From assembly GCA_949285535.1 (NCBI GenBank), contig CASDZP010000001.1, forward strand, positions 1 through 64,000: a DNA stretch of 64,000 bases, written 5' to 3'. Origin of the DNA: an uncultured Alistipes sp. GTDB taxonomy: Bacteria > Bacteroidota > Bacteroidia > Bacteroidales > Rikenellaceae. How positions within the stretch are numbered: the first letter of the stretch is position 1; each line of letters opens with the position of its first letter. The position numbers and the translations under genes are program-made. Under the pieces are notes generated by a model, which was given only the letters and a program-made list of their open reading frames with translations, did not search any database and was not told the origin of the DNA. Shown in pieces: positions 8,994 to 57,799 of the stretch.

Positions 8994-9108
8994 CCACTCC
9001 GCGTGCGTCTTCGGCGTAAGTTACTTTGTCACTCGACAAAGTAGGGGCACAGCTACTTCCCTCCAAGTCATACCCTTTTGATGCATTGTCTTTATCGAAG
9101 TCGGCATC
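8994..9108 (+). repeat. Gene-end repeat element, copy E (partly deleted)
   Basis: Shares the CTCCGCG...CTTC...GCG border, the TACTTTGTC/GACAAAGTA palindrome (9021-9047) and the terminal GAAGTCGGCATC with the copies at 10922, 45940, 48425 and 57371. It has lost the bases between the palindrome and GGGGCACAGC. It follows the LolA-like gene directly and no inverted copy of that gene's end is visible. Confidence 0.75.
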
Positions 9109-10685: not shown

Positions 10686-10921
10686 TCAGCGTTTTCATTT
10701 TTATACCATGCCAATCATACCCAACACAACAAACCTCCTAACTTACTTTTACATACTCTCCAAACATCACGACATTACACAAGTGACACACAAACGATTA
10801 CACACAACAGCCCTACTCCACCACATCTTTTACAATACAATTTTCATACGACATCCAACGCACATTTATTCATCTAAAAGCACTCTATTGCGATATAGAC
10901 ATATGAGGCGAGTGCAACCAA

Positions 10922-11045
10922 GACGCCGACTTCCTTATAGATAATGAGCCAACCGAATATGACATGGACAAAAGGGGCTGTGCCCCCTCGTTTTGGTTAC
11001 TTTGTCGAGGGACAAAGTAACTCCCGCGGAAGGCGCCCGCGGAGC
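10922..11045 (-). repeat. Gene-end repeat element, copy A (dnaK)
   Basis: A full copy of the element next to the dnaK fold-back. On the plus strand it runs from GACGCCGACTTCC, through AAAAGGGGCTGTGCCCCC, to the 11-bp palindrome GTTACTTTGTC/GACAAAGTAAC, and ends in a GC-rich CCCGCGGAAGGCGCCCGC segment at the junction with the inverted dnaK end. Other copies are at 8994, 45940, 48425, 57371 and a decayed one at 62039. The 290 bp between the transporter and this element hold nothing else I recognise. Confidence 0.92.
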
Positions 11046-11169
11046 GACACAAGCAAAGACAACAATATGACGGACATTGATTTCGAAGAGGTCAATAATC
11101 ATATAACAATAAAAAAGGAGGACTCATAACTGAGATTATGAGTCCTCCTTTTTTATTGTTTATATGACT

Positions 11170-13065
<1,896 letters not shown>

Positions 13066-41705: not shown

Positions 41706-42743
41706 ATGGCAGAGGTTATACACCCCAACGACTTTGCGGCGGCAAGCCGTGAGTCTGTCGTGATAGATGTAAGGACACCTTCGGAGTTTGCCCGCGGACA
41801 CATCGTGGGTGCATTCAACGTGCCTCTTTTTGACGATGAACAGAGAGCCGAAGTGGGTACAATATATGTAAAAAAAGGTCGTAAACCCGCCTTTCTGCGA
41901 GGTCTTGAACTTGTCGGAGGAAGACTTGCCGACATAGCCAGAGAAGCGGAAGCGGCGGCGCAGGGACGAGACATAATCGTCTATTGCTGGCGTGGCGGCA
42001 TGAGAAGCGGCAGTGTATGCTGGTTACTCGAAAACGCGGGCATGAAGGTACGGCAGCTCAAAGGGGGATATAAGGCATACAGAGGAACTCTCGAACCGCT
42101 TGTCAAACGATTCGCCGACAAGATTGTGGTCGTAAGCGGACCTACGGGAGGCGGAAAGAGTGTCATATTGAGGAAACTGGCACAGAGAGGCGAACAGTTT
42201 CTCGACCTCGAAGAGCTGGCACGCCACAAAGGGTCGGCTTTCGGAGGATTATGGCAGGAGCAGGAGACGACTGAGATGTTCATAAACAGGATAGTCGAGC
42301 GTCTTTGGTCGTTCGACCCTTCAAAAAGACTTTGGATTGAGGGCGAGAGCCGTACGATAGGCAAGGTCGTTGTACCCGAAACGCTATACGAAGCGATGAA
42401 GAACTCCCGTTGCGTATATATGGAATCGTCTGTCGAAAAGCGTCTCGAAAGGATAGAAAAAGAGTACGGTTGTATCGACAGAGAGCGTCTGTCGGCGGCT
42501 TTCGACAAGATAACCAAACGTTTGGGTCTTGAACAATGCCTTAAAGCGAAAGAGGCTGTCGAACGAGGCGACATATCGGAGGCGGCGGCGATAGCGCTCA
42601 AATATTATGACAAAGGATATAAGGCAAGTATCGACAAGTCGTACGACAAGGCAAAAATGTCTTATATAGACGTCACGGAGTACGATGACGACGAGGCGGC
42701 GGAAAAGTTGTTGGCACTCGTCGAAAACGGACATCACGAATAA
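41706..42743 (+). CDS. selU: tRNA 2-selenouridine synthase
   Basis: Replaces sulfur by selenium in the wobble 2-thiouridine of certain tRNAs, using selenophosphate (SelU/MnmH/YbbB). It has 345 residues. The N-terminal rhodanese domain has its catalytic cysteine in VYCWRGGMRSG (Cys94). The C-terminal P-loop domain has VSGPTGGGKS (Lys151). It heads a tight five-gene run ending with selD, which makes the selenium donor, so function and context agree. Confidence 0.96.
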   Translation: MAEVIHPNDFAAASRESVVIDVRTPSEFARGHIVGAFNVPLFDDEQRAEVGTIYVKKGRKPAFLRGLELVGGRLADIAREAEAAAQGRDIIVYCWRGGMRSGSVCWLLENAGMKVRQLKGGYKAYRGTLEPLVKRFADKIVVVSGPTGGGKSVILRKLAQRGEQFLDLEELARHKGSAFGGLWQEQETTEMFINRIVERLWSFDPSKRLWIEGESRTIGKVVVPETLYEAMKNSRCVYMESSVEKRLERIEKEYGCIDRERLSAAFDKITKRLGLEQCLKAKEAVERGDISEAAAIALKYYDKGYKASIDKSYDKAKMSYIDVTEYDDDEAAEKLLALVENGHHE

Positions 42744-42763
42744 AACGATAAAAACATAGAACC

Positions 42764-43375
42764 ATGATTACGATAGACGCCAAAGGAAGATTGTGTCCCG
42801 AACCTTTGATTATGACAAAAAAAGCGCTCAAAAACGCAGAAAAGGGACAACGTGTGACTATTCTAATAGACAACGAGACATCATGCTCCAATCTTACGGC
42901 TTATCTCGAAGAACTGGGCATAAAACCAGACAAAGAAGAGCGTGAGGATTGCACCGCTCTGTCATTCACCTTTGAGGGACTTAACGAGACCAACGCTTCG
43001 GTAACGACAGAGGAGCAATGTATCGTCACTCCCGCAAAAAAAGGCTATTGCGTTGTCATCAAGTCGGAGTTTATGGGCGAGGGCGACAATGAGCTAGGCG
43101 CGTTGCTCATGAGAGCCTATCTCAACACTCTGCCCGAAACCACTCCCCTGCCCTCCGACATACTGCTCTACAACGGAGGCGTAAAATTGGCGGTCGAAGG
43201 TACCGACACGAGCAAGGCTCTCGCCAAACTCGAAGCGGCGGGCGTAAAGATAATGTCATGCGGCACGTGTGTCGATTTTTACGGGTTGAAAGAACGAATC
43301 AAGATTGGCACGATAGGCAACATGTATAAGATTGCTCAGACCAAGGCGGAAGCCTCTCGCGTGGTATATCCCTAA
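42764..43375 (+). CDS. yedF: YedF-type sulfurtransferase-like selenium metabolism protein
   Basis: A 203-residue protein. The N-terminal TusA-like domain has GRLCPEPLIMTKKAL with the conserved Cys11-Pro-Glu-Pro. A second, DsrE/DUF3343-like domain follows (about 90-203) with FMGEGDNELGALLMRAYL and MSCGTCVDFYG. This two-domain form is found next to selD in many bacteria and is proposed to carry selenium or sulfur. It lies 20 bp after selU and 11 bp before the aminotransferase-fold gene. Confidence 0.92.
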   Translation: MITIDAKGRLCPEPLIMTKKALKNAEKGQRVTILIDNETSCSNLTAYLEELGIKPDKEEREDCTALSFTFEGLNETNASVTTEEQCIVTPAKKGYCVVIKSEFMGEGDNELGALLMRAYLNTLPETTPLPSDILLYNGGVKLAVEGTDTSKALAKLEAAGVKIMSCGTCVDFYGLKERIKIGTIGNMYKIAQTKAEASRVVYP

Positions 43376-43386
43376 AAGATTGTCTC

Positions 43387-44517
43387 ATGGCGACGAGAAA
43401 CGGTTATTTCGATAACGGAGCGACAAGCTACCCCAAGCCTCCAGAATGCGCGGAGTATATCGCCCGCTATCTCTCCGAGTGCGGCGGCACCTACGGTCGC
43501 GGCTCATACGAGCGTGTACTTAGAGCCACCGACATGGTGGAGAGATGTCGCGAGCGCATGGCGGAGATTATGGGTGTCGCAGAGCCCGCCTCCGTGACTT
43601 TCGGATGTAACGCGTCGTTCGGAGTGGCAGTCATACTTCGCGGCTTCGATTTCCGTCACGGCAGGGTTCTCATATCGCCGCTCGAACATAACGCCGTAAC
43701 ACGGGAGCTTGAAATGCTCCGTCAGACAATGTCGCTCACGGTGGAGGTGGCGGAACATAGTCGGGACGGCGCGATAGACATACCACGACTCAAAGCCCAA
43801 AATATCGACGCATACGATATGGTTATCGTATGTCACCAAAGCAATGTCAACGGTCTGACGCAGAATCTCGACGGAATAAGCGAGGCGGTCGGCGGACGCG
43901 CTCCGCTGTTTGTGGATATGTCGCAGTCGTTGGGTCACGTTGAGCCGCGTCTCGATGACAGAAACGTCGATTTTGCCATATGGACGGGGCACAAAGGATT
44001 GCTCGGACCTACGGGTGTAGGCGGATGTTTCATAAGGAACCACGAAAAGGTACGACCGCTCGTACTCGGCGGCACAGGCAGCAACTCCGACAGCTATGAG
44101 ATGCCGAACCGTGTACCCGACAAATTCGAGGCGGGCACTCCCCCACTCGTTCCGATAGCGGGATTGCTCGGCTCACTCGAAAACAGACCCGAAAACCGTC
44201 ACAGCCGTAATGATTTCCACGCTCTGCTGGAGAGATGCAAGGCGATAAAGTCGCTCACGGTACTATGCGCCGACGACACAGCCATGCAGGGAGAATTATT
44301 CTCTGTCGTATGCGACAAGATGTCGGTAGCGATGCTGAACCACAGATTATGGCATGAATACGCCATAGAGTGCCGTTCGGGATTACATTGCGCGCCACTC
44401 GCACACAAAACGCTTGGAAGCATGCCCCACGGAAGCGTAAGAATATCACCGTCTCCTTATCACACGAAAGAGGATTTCGACGCTTTGGCGACGGCGCTTG
44501 AAGAGATTTGCAGATGA
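43387..44517 (+). CDS. Class-V aminotransferase-fold enzyme, cysteine desulfurase-like
   Basis: A 376-residue PLP enzyme related to NifS/SufS. The PLP lysine is in WTGHKGLLGPTG (Lys203), with FVDMSQSLGH before it. The C-terminal GLHCAPLAHKTLG carries a cysteine (Cys335) where SufS-type desulfurases and selenocysteine lyases have their catalytic Cys. The N-terminus YFDNGATSYPKPPE is typical. In this cluster it probably supplies selenium or sulfur from (seleno)cysteine to YedF or SelD; that is inference from position. Its stop overlaps the next start (ATGA). Confidence 0.9.
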   Translation: MATRNGYFDNGATSYPKPPECAEYIARYLSECGGTYGRGSYERVLRATDMVERCRERMAEIMGVAEPASVTFGCNASFGVAVILRGFDFRHGRVLISPLEHNAVTRELEMLRQTMSLTVEVAEHSRDGAIDIPRLKAQNIDAYDMVIVCHQSNVNGLTQNLDGISEAVGGRAPLFVDMSQSLGHVEPRLDDRNVDFAIWTGHKGLLGPTGVGGCFIRNHEKVRPLVLGGTGSNSDSYEMPNRVPDKFEAGTPPLVPIAGLLGSLENRPENRHSRNDFHALLERCKAIKSLTVLCADDTAMQGELFSVVCDKMSVAMLNHRLWHEYAIECRSGLHCAPLAHKTLGSMPHGSVRISPSPYHTKEDFDALATALEEICR

Positions 44518-44729
44518 AACACTTGATTACATTCGCCTCGGCACGAGAGGCGTCACGGGCGACACGTCTCATGGAGAGCGAGAAGCTCGACATAGTGGTG
44601 ACAGCTACACCCGAAGACATATCGGCGGAGTGCGGCATAGCCATACTTGTATCACCCGAACAGATAGAGGCGTGCATGAAGATTATCACGGACAACAAGA
44701 TAGCGGCGGAAGTATATGAACGCCCTTAA
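44514..44729 (+). CDS. DUF3343 putative Se/S carrier protein
   Basis: A 71-residue protein (MKHLITFASAREASRATRLM at the start) of the DUF3343 / putative Se/S carrier family. It overlaps the upstream desulfurase-like gene by 4 bp and ends 31 bp before the selD start I prefer. The family is thought to shuttle selenium or sulfur between donor and acceptor. A cysteine (CGIAILV, residue 43 region) is present, as expected for such a role. Confidence 0.88.
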   Translation: MKHLITFASAREASRATRLMESEKLDIVVTATPEDISAECGIAILVSPEQIEACMKIITDNKIAAEVYERP

Positions 44730-44760
44730 AAAGAATTTGTCACAACAAAAGGAAGACCCC

Positions 44761-45813
44761 ATGAACGAAGAATACAGCTATGACCTTTTAGCCACCGTCA
44801 AAGAGGGCGGTTGCTCGGCAAAACTGCCCGCCGACAAGCTCTCGGAGCTGTTGAGCGACATACCGATGCTCAAAGACGCCAACATAATGGTTGACATAGA
44901 GACGCATGACGATGCGGGCGTATATCGTCTCAACGATGATGTGGCACTCATCGTGACGACCGATTTTTTCCCGCCAGTATGTTCGTCACCGCTGATGTTC
45001 GGGCGCATAGCCGCCGCAAACTCTCTGTCGGATGTCTATGCCATGGGCGGCGTACCTCTATTGGTGCTTAACCTCAACATGTTTCCTTCAGGAGCGCCAT
45101 TGGAGGCACTTCGTGACATACTCCTCGGCGGACAGGAGAAGATAAACGAGGCGGGAGCCTTTGTCATGGGCGGTCACACGATTGAGGATGCGACACCAAA
45201 GTATGGTCTTGCCGTAGTATGCACCGTCTCGCCCGAAAAGTTGGTGACCAATTCGGGAGCGCGTCCCGGTGACGTGTTGATATTGACGAAGCCGATAGGC
45301 ACGGGTGTTCTCATAGCGGCTCACCGCATGGGACTCGACACGCCTGAGGGTTACAAGGAGGCTCTCGACTCAATGAGCAGGCTCAACAACGATGCGGCAG
45401 AGGTGATGCGCAATTACAACATCAAAGGTGCGACCGACATAACGGGTTTCGGTCTTGCGGGGCATCTTATAAAGATGCTCGAAGCCTCTGACTGTTCCGC
45501 AGAGCTGTATGCCGAAGAGATACCGTTGATATGTGGTGTCGAAGAGTTACTCTCTGACGGATGCGTTCCCGGCACTACTTTCAGAAACAAAAACTTTGTC
45601 GGCGACAGAATCACATTCGCCCCCTCGATAAGCGTCGAAAGACGCCTCTCCCTCTTCGACGCCCAGACATCCGGCGGCATCCTCATGTCCGTACCCGAAT
45701 CCATCTCATCCGAGGTACTGACGAAGTTACGGGAGAAGTACCCAGTATCATCCATTATTGGAAAGGTATCGAAATCAAATGGTACAAACAGAATAAAGGT
45801 GTCACGTAAATAA
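44761..45813 (+). CDS. selD: Selenide, water dikinase (selenophosphate synthetase)
   Basis: Makes selenophosphate from selenide and ATP. From ATG 44761, preceded by AGGAAG, it has 350 residues; an ATG at 44716 would add 15 residues and overlap the DUF3343 gene. The active-site loop KEGGCSAKLP has Cys18 and Lys21, the cysteine form rather than selenocysteine. LIVTTDFFPP and ITGFGLAGHLIKM are family motifs. The C-terminal residues from MSVPESISSEVLTKLREKY to the end are copied in inverted orientation beyond the stop (45815-45939). No selA or selB is seen, so tRNA selenation by selU is the user of selenophosphate visible here. Confidence 0.96.
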   Translation: MNEEYSYDLLATVKEGGCSAKLPADKLSELLSDIPMLKDANIMVDIETHDDAGVYRLNDDVALIVTTDFFPPVCSSPLMFGRIAAANSLSDVYAMGGVPLLVLNLNMFPSGAPLEALRDILLGGQEKINEAGAFVMGGHTIEDATPKYGLAVVCTVSPEKLVTNSGARPGDVLILTKPIGTGVLIAAHRMGLDTPEGYKEALDSMSRLNNDAAEVMRNYNIKGATDITGFGLAGHLIKMLEASDCSAELYAEEIPLICGVEELLSDGCVPGTTFRNKNFVGDRITFAPSISVERRLSLFDAQTSGGILMSVPESISSEVLTKLREKYPVSSIIGKVSKSNGTNRIKVSRK

Positions 45814-45939
45814 AACGTGACACCTTTTTTTCGTTTGTATCATTTGTTCCAATACCTTTCCAATAATTGAAGATACGGGAATACTTCTCCCGTAACTTCG
45901 TCAGTACCTCGGATGATACGGATTCAGGTACGGACATGA
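45683..45939 (+). repeat. Fold-back inverted repeat at the 3' end of selD
   Basis: Arms 45683-45807 and 45815-45939, each 125 bases, flank a 7-nt loop (AAATAAA) that contains part of the selD stop codon. The left arm is coding sequence. The right arm, read on the minus strand, still encodes MSVPESVSSEVLTKLREKY, close to the SelD C-terminus. By eye the arms are near 90% identical; differences are fewest next to the loop and in the outer 60 bases. ACGTGACACC/GGTGTCACGT plus the T run acts as the terminator. Confidence 0.96.
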
Positions 45940-46067
45940 AATGTCTCCGACGGGTCTCCCGACGGTCTTACTTTGTCACTCGACAAAGTAAGACAAAACG
46001 AGGGGGCACAGCCCCTTTCGACCATGTCACATTCAGTTGGCTCATTATCTTTCAGGAAGTCGGCGTC
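45940..46067 (+). repeat. Gene-end repeat element, copy C (selD)
   Basis: Follows the inverted selD end. It has GTCTCCCGACGG (a shortened GC-rich part), the palindrome CTTACTTTGTC/GACAAAGTAAG with the change at its end compensated on both sides (G to C and C to G), GAGGGGGCACAGCCCCTTT, and the terminal GGAAGTCGGCGTC. The compensatory change suggests that the hairpin itself is kept. The 88 bp from here to the thioredoxin gene hold nothing further. Confidence 0.92.
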
Positions 46068-46155
46068 TTATCGTGCATTTGACAAAAAAAGAACGGAACT
46101 CGCCCTTCATGTAGGACAAGCCCCGTTACGCATATTAAGAACAAATTTTAAAACG

Positions 46156-48368: not shown

Positions 48369-48424
48369 TCCACACCATCCTCGCCTTATCATCCTCGCTA
48401 TTTTTCATAGCAAATACACGCAAA

Positions 48425-48560
48425 GATGCCGACTTCCCTCAAGATAATGAACCAAATGAGTGTGACATGGTCAAAAGGGGCTGTGCCCCCTCGTTTTGGT
48501 TACTTTGTCGAGGGACAAAGTAACTCCCGCTGAAAGCGCCCGTCGGGAGACCCCTCGGAG
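48425..48560 (-). repeat. Gene-end repeat element, copy B (yidC)
   Basis: On the plus strand it runs GATGCCGACTTCC, AAAAGGGGCTGTGCCCCC, the palindrome GTTACTTTGTC/GACAAAGTAAC (48499-48525 region), CGCCCGTCGGGAGACC and CCCCTCGGAG, then joins the inverted yidC end at 48561. It is among the most complete copies and very close in sequence to copies A and D. Confidence 0.93.
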
Positions 48561-48794
48561 AGAAAAACAAGTGGATGGCAAGGTATGAACAGATGATAAA
48601 AGAGCAGCAACAGCTCCAAAAACGGCAAAACGTCAATAAACATATCGGTATAATGTCAAAGGCAGGTTTCTCTGAATCGAGAAACCTGCCTTTGACATTA
48701 TACCGATATGTTTATCGACGTTTTTGCTGCTGTTTTTGGAGCTGTTGCTGCTCTTTTACCATCTGTTCATATCTTGCCATCCACTTGTTTTTCT
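48561..48794 (-). repeat. Fold-back inverted repeat at the 3' end of yidC
   Basis: Arms 48561-48672 and 48679-48794 surround a 6-nt loop (TGAATC). The right arm contains the last 27 or so yidC codons, the stop (48712) and about 33 bp of terminator stem. The left arm is their inverted copy and still reads KWMARYEQMIKEQQQLQK on the plus strand, against KWMARYEQMVKEQQQLQK in YidC. The arms differ by a few substitutions and a small gap at the CAGCAGCAAAAA stretch. Confidence 0.96.
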
Positions 48795-54459: not shown

Positions 54460-57207
54460 ATGTTTAAACTGAAAACCACTTTGGCGGTGTTGTGCATGAC
54501 TCTCGGTCTCGGCGCCTTTGCGCAGGAGGTCGAAATCAACCCCACGCCGCATAATCTTGAAATCATAAAGCCGGGGAGCCTGTCCGTCACGGACGGTTTT
54601 CGCATAAAGGATGTTCACGGCTGTTTCGGCGACATTCTCTCACGCTTCGGCGAGAGCGCAAAGAAAGGTCTTCCCCTGACCGTCGATTTCGGCGGCAAGG
54701 CGGCTGTGAAATACAATGTTCCGCAGGTTGAAGGCGCCTATGTGCTCGAAAGCGGCGACAAGGGTGTCACAATCGTCGGTTACGACGAGCAGGGCGCGTT
54801 CTATGGTCTCCAGAGTCTTCTGCAAGCGATTGACAAGGACGGCAACCTGCCCTACTTGAAGATAACCGACTACCCCGACATGCCGTACAGAGGTGTTGTC
54901 GAGGGATTCTACGGCAACCCGTGGACACACGCCACCCGTGTGTCGTTGCTCGACTTCTACGGCAAGTTCAAGATGAACACCTACCTCTACGGTCCCAAAG
55001 ACGACCCATACCACAGCTCGCCCAACTGGCGTTTGCCATACCCCGAAAAAGAGGCTGAACAGATAAAAGAGCTTGTCGAGGCGGCAAAGCGTAACCGTGT
55101 CGATTTCGTTTGGGCTATACACCCCGGTAAGGATATCGAATGGACGGAAGAGGATTACCAGAAGCTGTTGGCGAAGTTCGAGTCGATGTACGCACTCGGC
55201 GTACGCTCGTTCGCCCTCTTCTTCGACGACATTTCGGGTCAGGGTACCAACCCCGTGCGTCAGGCGGAACTGCTCAACAGACTGCATGACGAGTTCGTCA
55301 CCGTCAAAGGCGACGTCTCTCCCCTGATTATGTGCCCCACCGACTACACCCGTCTTTGGGCTAACCCCGACGACGACGGCTATCTGGCGATACTCGGCAA
55401 GACGCTCGACCCCTCGATACAGATAATGTGGACTGGCGACGCCGTCTGCGGCGACATCACCAAAGAGACGCTCGCATGGGTGAGCCACCGCATAAGACGT
55501 CCAGCCCTGATATGGTGGAACTACCCCGTCACCGACTACGTGCGTAACCTTGTTCTTCAGGGTCCCGTTTACGGTCTCGACAGCACCGCTACCCGCTCGA
55601 CAATGGCAGGATTCGTAAGCAACCCCATGGAGCACGGCGAGGCGTCAAAACTCGCGCTCTACGGTGTGGCTGACTACACTTGGAACATTTCTGACTACAA
55701 ACCCCTCTATAACTGGGAGAAAGCTCTCGCCGAGCTGATGCCGAGAGCGAAAGAGGCTTACCGCACTTTCGCCATACACTCGTGCGACACCGAGACGGGC
55801 TACCGTCGAGACGAGTCGTGGGAGACGGTCACATTCCCGATAGACAACTATACGGACGCGCAGTATGACGCCCTCATGGCGGAGTTCGAGAAGATAGAGG
55901 CTGCGCCCGAAGCTATCGAGGAAGGATGCGACAACAAAGCGTTGCTCGAAGAGCTCAAACCGTGGCTTGTAGAGTTCGAGAAGCTCGGCAAGCGAGGCAG
56001 AACCACTCTTGAAATGATAAAACTGCTCGAAAACGGCGACAACGCCGAGTTCTGGGAGAGATATGCCCGCAACACCATGAGCGCGGCGGAGACAGAGGCG
56101 TACAACGCCCACAAGTTAGGTACGCTGAAACTCCAGCCCTTTATCGAGACAAGCACGGACGCAATGGCAAACAAATATTACGCAGAGCTGTCAGGCGAGC
56201 CGCTTCCCGTACAGAAAGCGATAGGCACATTCAAGTCGCTCCCCACAACGCAGAGCAAACTGATGCTTGACGATGACATTCTGACCTACTACACTTCGGG
56301 ACAGGCACAGCGTTCGGGCGACTGGATAGGCGTTGACCTCGGCGAGATTACCGATGTGAAAGAGGTGGTGATACGACAGGGACGCAACACTCCCAACGAT
56401 GTCGATTTCTTCGACCACGCGCGTCTCGAATACTCTGTTGACGGCAACGAGTGGGCAACGCTCCGCGACAGCATCGTGAACGAGTATGACATAACGTTTG
56501 AGTGCGCTCCCGTCAAGGCACGTTACGTGAGGTTGCTCCGTCTCGACTCCGACAGAAAGAACTGGGTTGCTGTACGTGAGTTCAGCGTCAACCCGTTGAA
56601 ACGTTCGGCTGTCTTCTTCACCGACATAGAGCGTCTTGCGTCGCAGAGTGTCAACATGGTGGACGGCAAGGTAACCGTTGCGCCTCTGCTTGAGATTGTT
56701 AACGTACAGCCCGAAGGTTACTTCGGTGTCGAGCTTCCCTACATCACGTCTATCAATAAGATTGACGCCTCTCTCGGCAACAAAGGCTGGAAACCCGAAT
56801 ATTCGGTTGACGGCAAGCAGTGGGACGGCAACGCCACATCGGCACGTTTTGTACGTTTCCGCAACAACAGCGGCAAAGTAATGTCTTTGAAAATGGACAA
56901 GCTCATAATTGAGACTGACGCATCAAACGACGAAAGCGCCGTATATATCTTCGACAAGGACCTCAACACCGCCTACACACCCGACGGCGACTTCAAAGTT
57001 GCGGTACCCGAAAGCACCGTTACGGCGACCCTCCTCCTTAAAGGCTCTACCCCCAACGTTCTCGCCAGAGAACTCAACGCCAACGGAGACCTCGTGAAAG
57101 AGCACCGCATCGACGGCAACTTCTGTCAGTTTGCGGTCTCTGAAGGTGTAACCGATATCGAAATCGTTGGTATGCCTACCGTTTGTGAGGTGATATTCAA
57201 AAAGTAG
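54460..57207 (+). CDS. Beta-N-acetylglucosaminidase, glycoside hydrolase family 84
   Basis: A 915-residue exported glycosidase related to the O-GlcNAcase of Bacteroides thetaiotaomicron. A signal peptide (1-22, LGLGAFAQ) is followed by a GH20b-like N-terminal domain (about 23-145) and the TIM-barrel GH84 domain (about 147-440), opening YRGVVEGFYGNPWTHATR. The catalytic Asp pair is in LFFDDISG (Asp256, Asp257). A helical region and an F5/8-type carbohydrate-binding module (about 585-715, GVDLGEITDVKEVVI) follow. It removes terminal GlcNAc, probably from host glycoproteins or mucin. No SusC/SusD pair is adjacent. The last 41 codons are partly duplicated in an inverted repeat past the stop. Confidence 0.95.
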   Translation: MFKLKTTLAVLCMTLGLGAFAQEVEINPTPHNLEIIKPGSLSVTDGFRIKDVHGCFGDILSRFGESAKKGLPLTVDFGGKAAVKYNVPQVEGAYVLESGDKGVTIVGYDEQGAFYGLQSLLQAIDKDGNLPYLKITDYPDMPYRGVVEGFYGNPWTHATRVSLLDFYGKFKMNTYLYGPKDDPYHSSPNWRLPYPEKEAEQIKELVEAAKRNRVDFVWAIHPGKDIEWTEEDYQKLLAKFESMYALGVRSFALFFDDISGQGTNPVRQAELLNRLHDEFVTVKGDVSPLIMCPTDYTRLWANPDDDGYLAILGKTLDPSIQIMWTGDAVCGDITKETLAWVSHRIRRPALIWWNYPVTDYVRNLVLQGPVYGLDSTATRSTMAGFVSNPMEHGEASKLALYGVADYTWNISDYKPLYNWEKALAELMPRAKEAYRTFAIHSCDTETGYRRDESWETVTFPIDNYTDAQYDALMAEFEKIEAAPEAIEEGCDNKALLEELKPWLVEFEKLGKRGRTTLEMIKLLENGDNAEFWERYARNTMSAAETEAYNAHKLGTLKLQPFIETSTDAMANKYYAELSGEPLPVQKAIGTFKSLPTTQSKLMLDDDILTYYTSGQAQRSGDWIGVDLGEITDVKEVVIRQGRNTPNDVDFFDHARLEYSVDGNEWATLRDSIVNEYDITFECAPVKARYVRLLRLDSDRKNWVAVREFSVNPLKRSAVFFTDIERLASQSVNMVDGKVTVAPLLEIVNVQPEGYFGVELPYITSINKIDASLGNKGWKPEYSVDGKQWDGNATSARFVRFRNNSGKVMSLKMDKLIIETDASNDESAVYIFDKDLNTAYTPDGDFKVAVPESTVTATLLLKGSTPNVLARELNANGDLVKEHRIDGNFCQFAVSEGVTDIEIVGMPTVCEVIFKK

Positions 57208-57370
57208 CTTTTATACGATAAACAATAAAAAGGCTCGTCGGATTTTTCGACGAGCCTTTTCTGTTTATCGTAAAGCTACTTTTCTGAATATCACTTCACA
57301 AACGGTAGGCATACCTCGATTTCAATATCGGTTACACCTCCAGAGACCGCAAACTGATTCACGAGGTCTC
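57085..57370 (+). repeat. Fold-back inverted repeat at the 3' end of the GH84 gene
   Basis: Arms 57085-57240 and 57248-57370 surround a 7-nt loop (GATTTTT). The left arm holds the last 41 codons, the stop and a terminator stem GGCTCGTCG. The right arm is its inverted copy with one internal deletion of about 34 bases (after CTCGTGAA) and a few substitutions. The outermost match, CGGAGACCTCGTGAA, shows the copy once reached at least 120 bases into the gene. Confidence 0.95.
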
Positions 57371-57514
57371 CGACAGCTCTCCGAGGGGTCTCCCGACGGG
57401 CGCCTTCCGCGGGAGTTACTTTGTCACTCGACAAAGTAACCAAAACGAGGGGGCACAGCCCCTTTTGACCATGTCATATTCCGTTGGCTCATTAACTTTC
57501 ACGAAGTCGGTATC
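57371..57514 (+). repeat. Gene-end repeat element, copy D (GH84)
   Basis: A full copy: CTCTCCGAGGGG, TCTCCCGACGGGCG, CCTTCCGCGGGAG, palindrome GTTACTTTGTC/GACAAAGTAAC (57415-57440), GAGGGGGCACAGCCCCTTTTG, GTTGGCTCATTA and GAAGTCGGTATC. With copies A and B it defines the consensus. Confidence 0.93.
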
Positions 57515-57799
57515 TAACCGTTTATAGCCTCACCACTGAGAAGCAACAAGATACGCTAATTAACATATCGAAGTCAAAATGAAAAGGGAAAAGAATAAAG
57601 GAATAACGGAATAAAGAAATAGAAATAAAGAAATAAGGATAAAAGAATAAAAAAGTGACGGGGTACGCTAATCAACTTGTCAAGAAATAATGATTTTATG
57701 ATGAAAATTTTGAAACAATAAAGCTGTTGCGTAATTTTGAAATTATACTTTTTAGTATTTTGTAAATCATACTTGAGGAATAGAGTAAAAAAACTGATT
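57515..57799. repeat. AT-rich spacer with purine-rich repeats before the glycosylase gene
   Basis: No gene. Bases 57580-57650 are a degenerate run of AATAAAGAAATA / GGAATAACGGA units, ended by AAAAAAGTGACGGGGTAC (57649-57666), nearly the same string as at 38983-39000. The promoter of the next gene should lie after it; TATTTTG near 57755 is one base short of the -7 consensus. Confidence 0.55.

Follow-up and report, generated by a model that had tools for sequence, protein, structure and literature searches.

In Escherichia coli, template switching is an established reaction at imperfect palindromes: it has been followed in reporters and at a thyA hotspot, it is provoked by replication blocks, and in it a nascent strand folds back on a hairpin and copies itself, so that the arms grow alike (PMC7202029). 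The palindromes described here resemble these events, but in E. coli a few bases are corrected in short arms, whereas here whole gene ends of up to ~165 nt are copied, and at each of dozens of loci this is next to a member of a single repeat family. RNA hairpins, too, have been inferred to be created and maintained by template switching, with single events creating perfect stems and explaining compensating changes (PMC8794818); unlike our case, that work deals with RNA genes through ancestral reconstruction and involves neither a dispersed repeat nor the 3' ends of genes. As here, long inverted repeats that overlap coding sequence are numerous in the mitochondria of Nematomorpha (PMC6649704), but there both arms are coding within one gene and stay perfect, whereas here the second arm, next to an element, is non-coding and drifting. 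MicroRNA genes of plants that arose by inverted duplication of their targets likewise form a long hairpin from an inverted gene copy (PMC3237417). Those genes depend on eukaryotic small-RNA processing, and no such machinery is implied here.

Group IIC introns insert after terminators, and prefer terminator stem-loops. Unlike such introns, the element described below is accompanied by no Rfam match to an intron RNA in the window (the whole 64,000-nucleotide stretch analysed), and no intron-type reverse transcriptase was found. It shares with REP/BIME sequences and other bacterial stem-loop families the property of many intergenic copies of a short stem-loop repeat (surveyed in PMC2267715). In contrast to REP sequences with their Y1 transposase, no Y1 transposase (PF01797) was found in the source genome (G000) or in the congeners G001, G002 and G003, all four of them incomplete (82–88%). 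We know of no stem-loop repeat family described as carrying an inverted copy of a neighbouring gene. The open-access literature, outside of which subscription papers largely fall, yielded no account of a dispersed element in bacteria that is accompanied by inverted copies of the ends of neighbouring genes. The template-switch reaction is known in kind; its scale here and its tie to an element were, to our knowledge, not.

The source genome, that of an uncultured bacterium of gut type, is a Rikenellaceae metagenome-assembled genome (2.05 Mb draft, 59 contigs, 88% complete). A selenium cluster occupies positions 41706–45813 of the window and comprises MnmH, YedF, a cysteine desulfurase-like protein, a small DUF3343-like ORF (assigned by eye) and SelD, the last identified by its match to TIGR00476 (E 3.8e-105). 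A first-pass annotation had proposed that the 3' end of selD is present a second time in inverted form, with scattered differences and, by eye, arms about 90% identical. The duplication is real: the two arms, of 125 nt each, are the same at 111 of 126 aligned columns, among which there are 2 gaps (88%, slightly below the estimate by eye), and the mutations are indeed scattered. The palindrome score of 330, against 22 for the median 400-bp window, is far beyond chance, and folding predicts an RNA hairpin of -175.5 kcal/mol (z -25.8 versus shuffles). The axis is selD's own stem, terminator-like on both strands, with the stop codon inside the loop. A minus-strand ORF (45755–45937) starts with MSVPESVSSEVLTKLREKY, the SelD counterpart being MSVPESISSEVLTKLREKY, so that the copy does still read as SelD; however, this reading reflects recent copying and not retained function, the mismatches pooled over loci coming close to free drift of the copy at codon positions 1 and 2. 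The outer end of the inverted copy adjoins a dispersed hairpin-rich element of ~140 bp (45942–46083), and the interval originally annotated, 45683–46067, holds the palindrome and also most of this element, which had gone unrecognised. No SelD was found in G001 or G003, and G002 gave nothing beyond a weak partial match; another genome, G004, has selD without a visible palindrome downstream.

What had been taken for a structure specific to selD belongs to a genome-wide class tied to the dispersed element. Four more sites in the window, overlooked at first, have the same anatomy: yidC, the gene ends near 11174 and 57205, and the contig start (Table 1). At the internal sites (yidC, near 11.0 kb and near 57.2 kb) a repeat scan placed the dispersed element against the copy's outer end. 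A second dispersed repeat, GTGACGGGGTACGCT..CAACYTGTC, lies to the right of many element copies, for example at 57655–57690.

Table 1. Gene-end palindromes and element copies in the window.
Feature	Position	Strand	Remarks
selD (selenide, water dikinase), source of copied 3' end	44716..45813	+	ORF, TIGR00476
Arm 1, 3' end of selD coding sequence	45683..45807	+	inverted-repeat pairs I1-I3, alignment
selD terminator-like stem-loop, palindrome axis	45795..45827	.	13-pair stem, 7-nt loop, T tail
Terminator loop AAATAAA	45808-45814		contains selD stop codon 45811-45813
Arm 2, inverted copy of selD 3' end	45815..45939	-	88% identical to arm 1
Mini-hairpin units TGTCTCCGACGGGTCTCCCGACGG	45942..45965	+	each 3-bp stem + TCC(C) loop
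Element core hairpin GTCTTACTTTGTC-ACTC-GACAAAGTAAGAC	45965..45994	+	pair I5, conserved core, order-wide family
Remainder of element	45995..46083	+	AAAACGAGGGGGCACAGCCCC hairpin, conserved tail to right end
Second element copy, beside yidC	48402..48560	-	
yidC 3'-end palindrome	48561..48794	.	92% identical over 239 columns; YidC = NF002356
Third element copy	10921..11048	-	
Palindrome, 3' end of minus-strand gene ending near 11174	11034..11236	.	
Palindrome, 3' end of plus-strand gene ending near 57205	57126..57357	.	
Fourth element copy	57377..57535	+	used as query
Palindrome cut by contig start	1..151	.	96% identical; element would be beyond contig end
Diverged element copy	9002..9108	+	70% identical, without palindrome

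Reading outward from the copy, the element consists of 0–6 short units, then a hairpin, then CAAAACGAGGGGGCACAGCCCC, then a tail. The stems of the units were complementary in 139 of 148 cases in the genome sample, with four kinds of 3-base stem (GTC/GAC, CTC/GAG, CGC/GCG and CAC/GTG). The hairpin, GTTACTTTGTC-CCTC-GACAAAGTAAC, is nearly invariant, and the tail is more variable, terminating near ..CGTTTATAGCCT. The right end is nearly constant, whereas the left, palindrome-side end is truncated variously (query starts 1 to 88). Terminal inverted repeats and a target duplication, as in MITEs, were looked for: the two ends of the element are unlike each other, and the sequences compared included no empty site of the same species. 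The hairpin loop can pair with bases just after AAAA to form an H-type pseudoknot, by CCCTCG with CGAGGG in this element and by CTTGAT/ATCAAG, CTTGAC/GTCAAG or CTTGGC/GCCAAG in others, and the observed complementarity of loop and partner exceeded that in all 1000 permutations. The hairpin pattern is present in 52 of 295 genomes of the order. This order-wide dispersed hairpin has the form ACTTT..AAAGTAA(C/G)CAAAA (for example at L193, L194, L196, L204 and L205), with the pseudoknot and its covarying loop and partner in part of the matching genomes; at 30 loci of this wider family no palindromes comparable to those of G000 were seen. A distant relative (G283, L201) carries hairpin repeats in tandem with a spacing of ~327 bp (C1:26306, 26633; C8:34215, 34541, 34868). 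Several identities for the element were considered and set aside. It is not a protein-coding remnant on the reverse strand, its codon-position variability being without clear frame; it has no match in viral contigs, phages or plasmids that would indicate such an origin; and no known RNA family matched at gathering score in the window, the matches below that score being mostly to generic long-hairpin (miRNA) models.

Our genome-wide statements rest on 433 kb (contigs C1, C2 and C4), 30 extra loci and one pattern count. The core-hairpin pattern has 117 exact matches in G000, the reversed pattern none, and at least 40 element copies are among the Blast matches listed. Directly to the left of the element, and on that side only, a palindrome of 52–337 bp was present in 50 of the 53 distinct copies examined; two of the exceptions lie at contig ends, and the third is a diverged copy. 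Conversely, all of the 24 palindromes of at least 100 bp in the 433 kb adjoin elements, except one that is cut by the contig start. The arms cover up to 126 nt of coding sequence and are 83 to 100% identical, and the neighbours to the right are convergent in 31 of 43 cases. Four pairs of arms are perfect, and formation is therefore recent. Since many palindromes have no clear T tract, not every axis is a canonical terminator. At two tRNA genes (L021; contig C1:96576-96695) the palindrome ends just before the tRNA 3' end, with arms of ~27 nt. About a hundred genes carry a mirror copy of their own end, nearly all of them against the same repeat.

When the loci whose coding arm is clear are pooled, the copy mismatches its gene at 42/950, 52/964 and 82/977 sites of codon positions 1, 2 and 3, respectively (4.4, 5.4 and 8.4%). 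This distribution indicates that the copy drifts freely within a species while the gene is constrained. The mismatches are mostly transitions, 94 of them changing an amino acid and 82 not. They affect A, C, G and T of the gene arm 46, 52, 47 and 31 times, and the adenine-directed substitutions that mark diversity-generating retroelements are not seen among them. A coding palindrome of the Nematomorpha type was rejected, the copy arm drifting at codon positions 1 and 2 and thus not being under protein-level selection. Arm identity showed no significant link to element identity, taken as a measure of age (Spearman -0.24, p 0.10).

Comparison with congeners shows how the palindromes behave over longer times. 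In G003, 14 of 18 element copies have a palindrome beside them, and two of the copies without one (L041, L042) also have no stem-loop between stop codon and element. Four orthologous genes (rpsN, an oadB-like gene and two others, named by eye) have both element and palindrome in G000 and in G003. At each of them the copy in either species is an inverted version of that species' gene end and untranslated region (UTR); lengths and outer ends differ (rpsN extends about 75 nt into one species' copy and 22 nt into the other's), the UTR parts are unalignable between the species, and the arms are more alike within species than between. Because each copy mirrors its own species' sequence and the lengths are different, the comparison shows copies that have evidently re-formed at the same genes. 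The first-pass annotation had asked whether the copy drifts or is corrected by the gene; within a species it drifts, and between species the whole palindrome is made anew on the gene present there. In 788 kb of G003, 13 orthologous gene ends were found; four have an element, with palindromes of 55–121 bp, and the nine without an element have no palindrome above 34 bp. This sharing of sites exceeds the G003 element rate (P about 2e-4, with the gene count assumed and a possible bias from similarity-based choice of orthologs). Unless certain gene ends are targets again and again, the elements thus seem to persist and the palindromes to be replaced, and the sharing of sites could also reflect target preference rather than inheritance.

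In G002, yidC is followed by a plain terminator, without an inverted copy. Palindromes of 100 bp or longer were absent from 160 kb of G001, 45 kb of G002 and 80 kb of G011, and from 334 kb of 20 other genera. G001 and G002 each contain more than 180 candidate copies of another hairpin-rich element located after genes, and these have no gene-end palindromes, so hairpin-richness alone is insufficient. That element has related GC-rich units and a hairpin of 57–68 bp whose stem is variable yet complementary and falls into few stem families (L096:355-411, L098:6348-6404 and L100:19528-19595 in G001; L104:10687-10743 in G002). The only protein matching RVT_1 is present in G000 and G002 and was not found in G003, which is palindrome-bearing but incomplete. 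The 456-aa G000 protein (L031, C12:35168-35482, minus strand) resembles the reverse transcriptases of diversity-generating retroelements by eye.

The best explanation, in our judgement, is that the mirror copy at selD belongs to a class of gene-end palindromes that lie throughout the genome beside a dispersed element, and that the class arises by fold-back template switching that recurs at the terminator hairpin and is provoked by the element next to it; to the two statements taken jointly we attach about even confidence. From the observed association of element and palindrome and the recurrence of the copies, we infer a polymerase mechanism of the following kind. The element sits, as observed, downstream of the gene's terminator. 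DNA synthesis arriving from the gene would stall where the hairpins of the element are clustered, whereupon the new strand would fold its 3' end back on the terminator hairpin and copy itself for ~25–165 nt, the fold-back being suggested by the position of the axis on the terminator or a stem-loop after the gene. The strand might rejoin its normal template at the GC-rich mini-hairpin units via short shared sequence, given that return junctions share a mean of 2.7 nt with the unit arrays versus 0.7 nt when permuted, a difference that includes a greedy alignment bias of ~+0.3 nt and leans on two outliers. Thereafter, as the comparison of species shows, the copy mutates freely, may disappear and is formed anew, which leaves either species with a version of its own at a shared gene. 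A function of the copy is not needed in this scheme. Fold-back switching fits the position of the axis, the constant side relative to the element, the almost complete association and the turnover of the palindromes. As in quasipalindrome template switching generally, the inverted repeats are centred on a hairpin and their arms are near-complementary, and the arm is newly templated relative to a sister without it (yidC in G002; 9 of 13 ends in G003). Against it, we infer rather than observe the stalling at the element; a switch and return of ~100 nt would be longer than the events in E. coli reporters; and nested re-copying predicts that mismatch should rise away from the axis, but no such gradient of refreshing is seen along the arm, and mismatch is highest near the axis.

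The copying may instead be part of element insertion, through an RNA- or ssDNA-mediated event that starts from the terminator hairpin (at a self-primed mRNA 3' end, for example), copies backwards through the gene end, switches to the sequence of the element and is joined downstream. We consider this, the main rival, rather unlikely. A constant right and truncated left end would be expected of one-ended, retro-type insertion, and the near-complete association in G000 also speaks for such coupling. However, no shared enzyme was found in the four genomes, from which at 82–88% completeness one may be missing; G003 holds element copies with no palindrome; palindromes at shared sites are species-specific although the element seems older; and the mismatches do not have the adenine-directed pattern expected from a diversity-generating retroelement. 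A bolder reading, also rather unlikely, is that the repeat is a new type of bacterial dispersed element which, in spreading or persisting, writes an inverted copy of its neighbour's 3' end between itself and the terminator and refreshes it over time, each copy thus having a host-specific hairpin and a terminator in common with the host gene.

Selection for long gene-end hairpins, acting as strong two-way terminators or protecting mRNA ends, would account for the frequent convergence of right neighbours and for an axis at the stem-loop after the gene, which at selD is terminator-like on both strands. We nevertheless judge it improbable, as the arms drift at nonsynonymous positions and extend 126 nt into coding sequence with no gain for a terminator, and as palindromes occur only where the element is present and are lacking in sister species that possess these genes. 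It is quite improbable, too, that the palindromes predate the split of the species and that gene conversion has kept their arms alike. The four sites common to both species, and the greater likeness of arms within than between them, are compatible with that history, but conversion alone would leave the outer ends unmoved, whereas lengths and outer ends differ at shared sites and UTR parts cannot be aligned; arm identity, moreover, spans the whole range from 83 to 100%. An assembly or library fold-back artefact has to be considered for draft metagenome assemblies in which some contigs end inside palindromes or elements, but is scarcely credible, as the first-pass annotation had also held. The scattered mismatches follow codon constraint, the side relative to the repeat is fixed, and the same anatomy recurs across this assembly and in that of a second species, which was assembled independently.

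The element is a candidate for a factor that provokes inverted duplication in cis. A single 2 Mb genome contains roughly a hundred natural replicates of the event; for each of them the source sequence is known, the neighbour is fixed and the age can be read, and sister species that have and lack the process are available for comparison. Many gene-end 'ORFs' in such genomes are mirror copies, which is a warning for their annotation. The findings bear on how long perfect stems arise at once, and on template switching versus selection as the source of hairpins, and they point to a process by which gene ends are continually rewritten as long hairpins.
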